A stretch of 34,172 bases of DNA from Aquificaceae bacterium. Its GTDB lineage: Bacteria > Aquificota > Aquificia > Aquificales > Aquificaceae. Positions 9,109 through 11,751 of the stretch are shown in pieces; positions within the stretch are counted from its first letter, which is position 1, and each line of letters starts with the position of its first letter. Under the pieces are notes generated by a model, which did no database searches, had not been told where the DNA came from, and saw only the letters and a list, made by a program, of their open reading frames with translations. The stretch is taken from positions 1-34,172 of the forward strand of contig JANXBA010000039.1 in the NCBI GenBank assembly GCA_025062075.1, given 5' to 3'. The translations under genes were made by a program, and so were the position numbers.

Positions 9109-9887
9109 GAAAATACATACTTCTTCTGCTGGCTACCGTCAGCGTAGGGCAGGCTTCCGCCTTTGTAAAGAGCGAGGGGGAGCTTTTCCTTTCGCCCTCC
9201 TTCTACTACTACAGGGCCAGCAAGTTTTACGACAGAGAAGGCAACAGAAGAGACATAGGCTGTAAGTTCACAAAAAGAGAAGTCCAGCTCTACGGAGAAT
9301 ACGGGCTCACGGAGAAAACGACCCTTACCTTCAAGCTCCCCTACGCTCAGTTGGAGTGCGGTGCGGACCGCACCTCTAGACTGGGAGACCTAGAGGTGGG
9401 CTTCGTGAGAAACCTCAGAAGAGACAAGAGCTCCTCTCTGTCCACCTACGGCACTCTCTTGGTGCCCACCGGCTACTCAATACAGGACAACCTCAGGCTA
9501 GGCTACGGTAGGCTGGGGGCGGAGGGTGGACTGCTCTACGGGCTGTCTGGGAAAGGGGGCTTTTTTGACTCAGGCTTAGGCTACAGGTACTACTTTGGAT
9601 ACCCTTCCAGCCATGTCAGGGGCTACCTTTCTGGAGCTTACAGTCTAGCTTCTAACCTACAGCTCTACAGCATGTTAGACGCCCAGATAGGGTTGGGAGA
9701 CGGCAAAACCAAAAGGGTGGGGAGGAATCTGGTGCTGGAGCCCGACTACAAACTCCTACAGGCGTACGTGGGACCTCGCCTGATTCTGGGAAGTGCCTCT
9801 GTTTTGGTAGGCTATCAGCGAGTCCTGTGGGGAAGAAAGACGGGCGACGGCTCGGGATTTTTCATGAGCCTCTGGTATGGTTTCTAA
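9105..9887 (+). CDS. Predicted small outer-membrane beta-barrel protein
   Basis: Signal peptide MRKYILLLLATVSVGQASAF; alternating aromatic/hydrophobic beta-strand pattern throughout; C-terminal aromatic residue (FFMSLWYGF) typical of barrel proteins. Four-bp overlap with the upstream BcsB-like gene. Confidence 0.6.
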   Translation: MRKYILLLLATVSVGQASAFVKSEGELFLSPSFYYYRASKFYDREGNRRDIGCKFTKREVQLYGEYGLTEKTTLTFKLPYAQLECGADRTSRLGDLEVGFVRNLRRDKSSSLSTYGTLLVPTGYSIQDNLRLGYGRLGAEGGLLYGLSGKGGFFDSGLGYRYYFGYPSSHVRGYLSGAYSLASNLQLYSMLDAQIGLGDGKTKRVGRNLVLEPDYKLLQAYVGPRLILGSASVLVGYQRVLWGRKTGDGSGFFMSLWYGF

Positions 9888-11751
9888 ACATCTGGACTGT
9901 GCTACCATAGGCTGTCTCCTTATAGAGAAAGGGCTTATCACGCAAGAACAGTTGGAAGAGGCCCTGCAGTATCAGAAAAGGTACGGAGGAAGGCTTGGCT
10001 GGATACTCTCCACGCTGGGCTACGTAAGGAGATTAGACTTTTTTAGGACTCTTGCGGAGCTCTTCAACCTGACCTTCGTAGAGGGCGTGCCCAACATATT
10101 AGAAAAAGTAGACAATGAGCTGGTAAGGCGTTTCGACCCGGAGGAGCTGGTAAGCTACGAAGTCCTGCCCGCACGCCTTGAAGGAAACAAGGTGCTTCTA
10201 TTTACCTCTTACCCCAACAGCGACAAGCTAAGCACTTTCGTAAACAAACACTTTCCGGGGAAAGTAGTAGAGCAGGTAGTGGTCACCGACCTTGACCTGG
10301 TTAAGGTATTGCAAGAGCTCTTTAAGGGTTCTTTCGTAGACAAGGCGGTCAACGGTCTTTTTTACCTGACGCCCGAGTACTCTGCCTCCGTGGTATTTTC
10401 CGAAGGTCAGGTCTTTCTGATGGGAGGCCTTCTGACCCTTGGGCTCGTGGGTCTATACTACGAGCCCGTTCTCACCCTTACCTTACTGATGGCCTTCGTG
10501 CAGGTTTTCTACGCAGTCTCGGTAGGCTTCAAGCTTCTCGTCAGCGTGGTGGGCTCAAGGAGCGAGATGGAGCAGTTTGTCACCGAGGAGGAAGTAAAAA
10601 ATCTTGAGGAGAAGGACCTTCCCGTTTACACCATCCTCGTCCCCGTATACAAGGAGCCTGAGGTTATAGGCATTCTTATAGATAGTCTGAAAAAGGTGGA
10701 CTATCCTCAGAACAAGTTAGACATCATCCTGCTACTGGAGGAGGACGACACGGAGACGCTGGAGGCCGCCAAAAGGCACGCTCCGCCCACCAACTGGCGC
10801 TTTCTCACCATCCCCCACAGCATACCCAAGACCAAGCCCAAGGCCTGCAACTACGGGCTTTTCTTCGCCAGAGGAAAGTATCTGACCATATACGACGCAG
10901 AGGACATCCCCGAGCCAGACCAGCTCAAAAAGGCGGTGGTTGCTTTTAGGAAGGCGGGCCACGAATACATCTGCTTCCAGGCGGCCCTTAACTACTTTAA
11001 CAAGGACGAGAACTTTCTCACCAGAATGTTTACCCTGGAGTACTCCTACTGGTTTGACTATCTCCTGCCTGGGCTCTTCAAGCTGGGCCTGCCTATACCC
11101 TTGGGCGGGACCAGCAACCACTTTGACGTGGAAAAGCTTAGGGAGATAGGCGCTTGGGACCCCTTTAACACCACCGAGGATGCGGACTTAGGCGTGAGGG
11201 CCTTCGGCAGGGGCTACAAGGTAGGGGTCATAAACTCTACCACTTACGAAGAGGCCAACGCTCGGCTCAAGAATTGGATAAGACAGAGGTCCCGATGGAT
11301 AAAGGGCTACATGCAGACCTTTTTGGTGCACGCCCGAAACCCCGTAAAGCTCTACAGGTCCGTAGGCTTAAGAGGCATGCTTGCCTTTTACCTACTCATA
11401 GGAGGCACGCCCTTTACCTTTCTCGTAAACCCCATCATGTGGCTTGTTTTCCTCGTGTGGCTCCTTACCAAAACTCAAGCCTACGAGCAGTTTTTCCCAC
11501 CTGCGGTGCTATACATGTCTCTCGGCAACCTGCTCCTGGGTAACTTTATGGGTGTGTACCTGAACCTGATTGCGGTCTTCAAGAGGAAATACTACGAGCT
11601 ACTGCCATACGCCTTTCTCAATCCCTTTTACTGGATGCTCCACTCCGTTGCCTCCTACAAAGCCCTGCACGAGCTCTTTACCAGACCCTTCTACTGGCAA
11701 AAGACCCAGCACGGCATAACCAAGTACAAACCACCCGTGGTCAAGTCATGA
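9877..11751 (+). CDS. Processive GT2-family polysaccharide synthase with N-terminal MshEN/GspE_N-type domain
   Basis: N-terminus TIGCLLIEKGLITQEQLEEALQYQ...RLGWILSTLGYVRRLDFFRTLAEL matches MshEN tandem motifs. Two TMs follow, then a GT2 core (VPVYKEPEVIGILIDSL; YDAEDIPEPDQL; NTTEDADLGVRAFGRGYK; WIRQRSRWIKGY, a Q-x-x-R-W motif), then several C-terminal TMs. Confidence 0.87.
   Translation: MVSKHLDCATIGCLLIEKGLITQEQLEEALQYQKRYGGRLGWILSTLGYVRRLDFFRTLAELFNLTFVEGVPNILEKVDNELVRRFDPEELVSYEVLPARLEGNKVLLFTSYPNSDKLSTFVNKHFPGKVVEQVVVTDLDLVKVLQELFKGSFVDKAVNGLFYLTPEYSASVVFSEGQVFLMGGLLTLGLVGLYYEPVLTLTLLMAFVQVFYAVSVGFKLLVSVVGSRSEMEQFVTEEEVKNLEEKDLPVYTILVPVYKEPEVIGILIDSLKKVDYPQNKLDIILLLEEDDTETLEAAKRHAPPTNWRFLTIPHSIPKTKPKACNYGLFFARGKYLTIYDAEDIPEPDQLKKAVVAFRKAGHEYICFQAALNYFNKDENFLTRMFTLEYSYWFDYLLPGLFKLGLPIPLGGTSNHFDVEKLREIGAWDPFNTTEDADLGVRAFGRGYKVGVINSTTYEEANARLKNWIRQRSRWIKGYMQTFLVHARNPVKLYRSVGLRGMLAFYLLIGGTPFTFLVNPIMWLVFLVWLLTKTQAYEQFFPPAVLYMSLGNLLLGNFMGVYLNLIAVFKRKYYELLPYAFLNPFYWMLHSVASYKALHELFTRPFYWQKTQHGITKYKPPVVKS

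Follow-up and report, generated by a model that had tools for sequence, protein, structure and literature searches.

An MshEN domain with an unusual, likely c-di-GMP-binding site at the N terminus of an Aquificaceae GT2 polysaccharide synthase of the XagB/Sfz2 type

The window analyzed here, a 34,172-nt stretch of the Aquificaceae assembly GCA_025062075.1, carries a gene cluster in the order BcsB-like gene, probable outer-membrane barrel, MshEN-GT2 synthase, XagC-like gene and XagD-like gene (Table 1), an order that is repeated in Aquificaceae and partly preserved at Nitrospinota, deltaproteobacterial and other loci. The barrel candidate gave no Pfam match, and the two genes downstream of the synthase gave no family match among Pfam and NCBIfam profiles. 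The BcsB-like gene is frameshifted near 7655-7670 in this assembly. Because the sister locus L037, whose synthase is 92% identical, has BcsB as a single intact 629-aa ORF (5343-7232), the split points either to an error in the assembly or to a gene that was inactivated recently. Genes recognized by annotation as sugar-nucleotide genes flank the operon at 3940-5346 (minus strand), 14251-15630, 18742-20043 and 20040-20972; they are listed as phosphoglucomutase-like, manC/PMI-like, UDP-glucose dehydrogenase and UDP-glucuronate decarboxylase-like, and may supply UDP-GlcA or UDP-Xyl. An Rfam search of the window matched no c-di-GMP riboswitch or other RNA. The genome itself encodes three GGDEF proteins (GGEEF, GGDEF and GGDDF), three EAL proteins and one PilZ protein.

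Table 1. Features of the synthase gene and its operon (positions in the window)
Feature	Position	Strand	Evidence
BcsB-like periplasmic partner, two overlapping ORFs (7226-7702, 7660-9108)	7226..9108	+	PF03170 E 5e-8
Probable outer-membrane beta-barrel, 260 aa, signal-peptide-like start, C-terminal Phe	9105..9887	+	Syntenic in relatives; barrel inferred
MshEN-GT2 polysaccharide synthase, XagB/Sfz2-like, 624 aa	9877..11751	+	ORF; Pfam/NCBIfam domains; AlphaFold2 pLDDT 90.2, pTM 0.90
MshEN motif 1, residues 10-33, TIGCLLIEKGLITQEQLEEALQYQ; Arg replaced by Thr10, Gln33 retained	9904..9975	+	Translation; NF053729 match 11-61
Spacer KRYGG, 5 residues (34-38), canonical length	9976..9990	+	Translation; compared with PMC5013675
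MshEN motif 2, residues 39-62, RLGWILSTLGYVRRLDFFRTLAEL; Gln replaced by Leu62, Leu by Phe55	9991..10062	+	Translation; NF053729; family alignment
MshEN_C alpha/beta subdomain, residues 77-150	10105..10326	+	Pfam PF05157; strands 96-102, 105-110, 130-135 in AlphaFold2 model
N-terminal membrane helices, residues 176-227	10402..10557	+	Model helices 176-195, 197-227; hydropathy
GT2 catalytic domain, residues 250-480; DAED 340-343, TED 433-435, QRSRW 470-474	10624..11316	+	Pfam; alignment
C-terminal interface/membrane helices, residues 489-602	11341..11682	+	Model; hydropathy peak 513-531
XagC/Sfz3-like polytopic membrane protein	11748..13187	+	Position and conservation
XagD/Sfz4-like secreted protein, possible hydrolase	13174..14232	+	Position

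A sequence-only reading of this DNA had proposed two tandem MshEN-like motifs at the N terminus of the synthase, placed ahead of the GT2 membrane helices. Both peptides are present with a 5-residue spacer between them, the domain order is MshEN, membrane helices, GT2, membrane helices, and the profile search suggested there as a check found the domain. NCBIfam NF053729 ("c-di-GMP_motif, MshE-related") matched residues 11-61 with an E value of 1.1e-15 and 57.2 bits against a cutoff of 38, and Pfam MshEN (PF05157) matched residues 77-151 with 26.3 bits in a six-frame search, above its cutoff of 23.1, and with 22.6 bits, slightly below it, in an hmmscan of the ORF. The N-terminal region matched Thermus PilF, V. 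cholerae MshE (5HTL) and PilB in phmmer, and the motif pair scored 19 of 22 against the MshEN consensus, where 2000 shuffles reached at most 13.

An AlphaFold2 model built with 53 homologues (mean pLDDT 90.2, pTM 0.90) builds the expected bundle from helices 10-17, 23-36, 40-46 and 52-62; the alpha/beta subdomain, the membrane helices, GT2 and the C-terminal helices come next, so that both parts of the MshEN fold, the four-helix bundle and the alpha/beta subdomain, are present in the predicted structure. By Foldseek, the N-terminal domain matched c-di-GMP-bound MshE (5HTL) with an rmsd of 2.0 across 139 columns and a TMt of 0.86, and the GT2 part matched hyaluronan and cellulose synthases. The DxD, TED and QxxRW motifs of processive GT2 enzymes are intact at 340, 433 and 470 and strongly conserved among 53 aligned homologues. 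Profile hits, sequence similarity to c-di-GMP-bound structures that have been solved, and the predicted fold all identify the domain as a real MshEN, and the sequence of the enzyme is that of an intact processive GT2.

Sfz2, described in 2021, combines an N-terminal IPR007831 domain with GT2 and is encoded in an sfz1-sfz4 cluster (PMC8250860), and the Ferriphaselus cluster reads bcsB-xagB-xagC-xagD (PMC4643136). The Aquificaceae locus shares with these Sfz2/XagB-like systems (the stalk cluster of Zetaproteobacteria and Ferriphaselus, and xagABCD of Xanthomonas) the N-terminal IPR007831 and C-terminal GT2, the adjoining BcsB-like gene and the two xagC/xagD-like genes that follow, although neither paper named the N-terminal domain as a c-di-GMP receptor (PMC8250860, PMC4643136). 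We file it with XagB/Sfz2 by architecture and synteny only, that is, an MshEN-GT2 gene beside a BcsB-like gene with two conserved downstream genes. E. coli NfrB, a c-di-GMP-activated glycosyltransferase of the N4 receptor system and an experimentally tested case of an EPS synthase under MshEN control, likewise pairs a GT2 carrying DxD, TED and QxxRW with an MshEN that has one degenerate half-motif, but its MshEN is C-terminal (the reverse order), its operon lacks BcsB and its partner is the TPR-barrel protein NfrA. Identity with the NfrB equivalog (NF008411) was rejected at 30.9 bits, over the N-terminal domain only, against more than 1170 required. V. cholerae MshE and Thermus PilF GSPII-B share the domain and the binding motifs, with the AlphaFold2 model matching 5HTL, but theirs is fused to a traffic ATPase and has Gln in both motifs, and BcsA-BcsB cellulose synthase shares the GT2 fold and the BcsB partner but senses c-di-GMP through a C-terminal PilZ domain. 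The novelty implied by the first reading does not hold, as it was preceded by the statement of MshEN-glycosyltransferase fusions by Wang et al. 2016 (PMC5013675), by NfrB (PMC8669469) and by Sfz2 (PMC8250860). The MshEN-GT2 fusion is already described and spread over many phyla, and the Aquificaceae protein is a good new example rather than a new kind of system. In our literature search, itself incomplete, no paper turned up that had tested XagB, or any other GT2 with an N-terminal MshEN, for binding of c-di-GMP.

We then considered the putative c-di-GMP site residue by residue. In MshE, one Arg and three Leu sandwich each guanine, Gly makes contacts through its backbone and Gln contributes hydrogen bonds; mutating the motif glycines abolishes binding (PMC5013675). 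The synthase keeps the position-3 Gly of both motifs (G12, G41), hydrophobic residues at positions 2, 17 and 21 of both (I11, L26, L30, L40, F55, L59), and R39 and Q33. T10 and L62 depart from the rule that each motif opens with R/K/L (position 1) and closes with Gln (position 24): Thr10 falls outside even the extended R/K/L consensus, and Leu62 leaves the synthase without one of its two motif glutamines. The earlier reading had recognized Thr10 in place of Arg in motif 1 but missed two replacements in motif 2, where the Gln that contacts the ligand has become Leu62 and one Leu has become Phe55.

This rule is not strictly defining, because NfrB fails it and yet binds c-di-GMP at 1.0 uM, with the site required in vivo (PMC8669469); NfrB motif 1, PLGQILLENQVITEEQLDTALRNR, lacks both Arg and Gln, and its inter-motif spacer has 4 residues versus 5 here. 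The Arg is dispensable, since PilF GSPII-B has Lys and Leu in its place and binds better, at 6 nM (PMC11731258). Changes of Gln are costly, however: in PilF a Gln-to-Glu change costs about 80-fold singly and abolishes binding when combined (PMC11731258). The family alignment has 66 rows with both glycines, duplicate genomes included. Gln33 is kept in 61 of them, whereas at position 62 both His (25 rows) and Leu (20 rows) outnumber Gln (14 rows); the family as a rule therefore lacks the second Gln. Other Aquificaceae have R/K/L at position 10 and mostly His62, which makes this protein and its L037 sister the weakest predicted site among their kin. We conclude that c-di-GMP binding by the site is likely but not assured, and that it is probably weaker than at a canonical site because the motif-1 Arg and the motif-2 Gln are replaced. 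As a separate observation, two cyanobacterial relatives (L071 and L072, 8001-9794) carry an 8-residue insertion in motif 1 and have lost its glycine, with the motif-2 glycine kept.

At least 575 relatives were confirmed in a scan of genome contigs, the best 80 of which show near full-length coverage, N-terminal domain included; the 49 sampled from these 80 for a tree carry 16 phylum labels. Across the 49 genomes, a confident GGDEF gene occurs in all 33 whose synthase keeps both motif glycines. A glycine is lost in the other 16, of which six keep GGDEF and 10 have no confident GGDEF gene (eight of the Mucilaginibacter type with none and two with only a match at E 1e-7). In six further Bacteroidota genomes with the gene, GGDEF is absent and the motif is not intact, the motif region being poorly aligned in three, so that motifs are degenerate in 16 of 16 genomes without confident GGDEF (10 sampled and six further Bacteroidota). 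PilZ is also absent from 11 GGDEF-poor genomes. A Fisher test of motif against GGDEF gave a p of 2.5e-9, a value that ignores ancestry; the tree places five motif changes and two GGDEF changes (about two independent GGDEF losses), and the independent pairs never run the opposite way, at numbers too few for significance. The GGDEF pattern fits what would be expected if the site serves c-di-GMP, and no more, given the few independent losses. A second kind of loss is seen in Hydrogenothermaceae/Persephonella (L102, 4565-6409; L105, 8001-9845), where the c-di-GMP motif of the synthase is wrecked and the genomes keep GGDEF.

Taken as a whole, the best explanation, and one we hold to be probable, is a c-di-GMP-controlled MshEN-GT2 subunit of an XagB/Sfz2-type complex. 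In such a complex, which would synthesize and secrete the polymer in the manner of BcsA/BcsB, the protein would be the inner-membrane catalytic subunit, c-di-GMP would bind its particular MshEN site, presumably with the reduced strength described above, and binding would activate rather than inhibit the synthase; we infer the path and the identity of the polymer. Direct control by c-di-GMP through a module other than PilZ, as the sequence-only reading had suggested, is likely though unproven: the MshEN identity, the intact GT2 and the GGDEF/EAL genes of the genome speak for it, and the replacement of Arg in motif 1 and of Leu and Gln in motif 2 weakens it. The frameshift in the BcsB-like gene and the six genomes that keep GGDEF despite a lost glycine also count against the overall explanation.

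A less likely but serious alternative is that MshEN is a ligand-free structural or docking module whose site has decayed in this lineage (Thr10, Phe55, Leu62), leaving the synthase constitutive or controlled by transcription or partner proteins. Mucilaginibacter relatives keep the N-terminal domain without the motif, suggesting that the domain can stay without ligand. Their model exceeds pLDDT 90 there and has the same secondary-structure order; because the top 50 Foldseek matches of this model do not include MshE, retention of the fold is read from secondary-structure order and model confidence only. The MshE L10A/L54A/L58A variant, which does not bind in vitro yet complements in vivo (PMC5013675), also favors a ligand-free role. 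Against this, the motif of the synthase scores close to that of NfrB (57.2 and 66.4 bits), all key glycines are kept, and Thr10 and Leu62 are common to the synthase and its 92% identical sister, indicating that the site is not drifting freely.

We also considered whether the N-terminal part links the synthase to a machine for type II secretion or type IV pili; this was found unsupported, and we regard it as very improbable. MshEN is homologous to the N-terminal domain of GspE/PilB, and an EpsE-like translocation role was suggested for Sfz2 by authors who themselves call it questionable (PMC8250860); however, the synthase has no ATPase domain, no gene of either machine was recognized beside it in the window, and GT2 synthases have their own channel, as established for BcsA. 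Least probable of all is another cyclic dinucleotide such as cGAMP as the ligand, which MshEN binds weakly (Kd 330 uM; PMC5013675), whereas MshEN owes its specificity for guanine to backbone amides at the conserved Gly and the genome has GGDEF genes.

With c-di-GMP control as the preferred reading for this synthase, we tentatively suggest a broader scenario, which we rate somewhat below an even chance. A cross-phylum family of BcsB-partnered synthases may ancestrally have been switched by c-di-GMP through an N-terminal MshEN whose site is asymmetric, with His or Leu usually standing in for the second Gln, and lineages losing c-di-GMP signaling may erode the site and keep the fold, leaving a constitutive enzyme. 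The motifs give a sequence-level reason to expect direct, PilZ-free c-di-GMP control of a large exopolysaccharide synthase family that includes the candidate stalk synthase of iron-oxidizing bacteria, in which the published Sfz2 description took the same domain for part of a secretion ATPase. Natural members of the family that lack the motif are ready-made controls for signal transfer from MshEN to GT2, and the two unusual binding-site residues make the Aquificaceae site worth a binding test.

The gene is patchy within Aquificota. In a tree of the GT part only, the protein falls within Aquificaceae, adjoining rows labeled Nitrospinota and Myxococcota. Very similar synthases were also found in bins labeled Bacteroidetes and Chloroflexi (L081 and L086), where a wrong bin label or contig, or gene transfer, is possible. 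In one further relative (L019, G013 C1:1392117-1393953), the MshEN and GT2 parts are not in the same frame and a stop falls inside the match, suggesting a broken copy.
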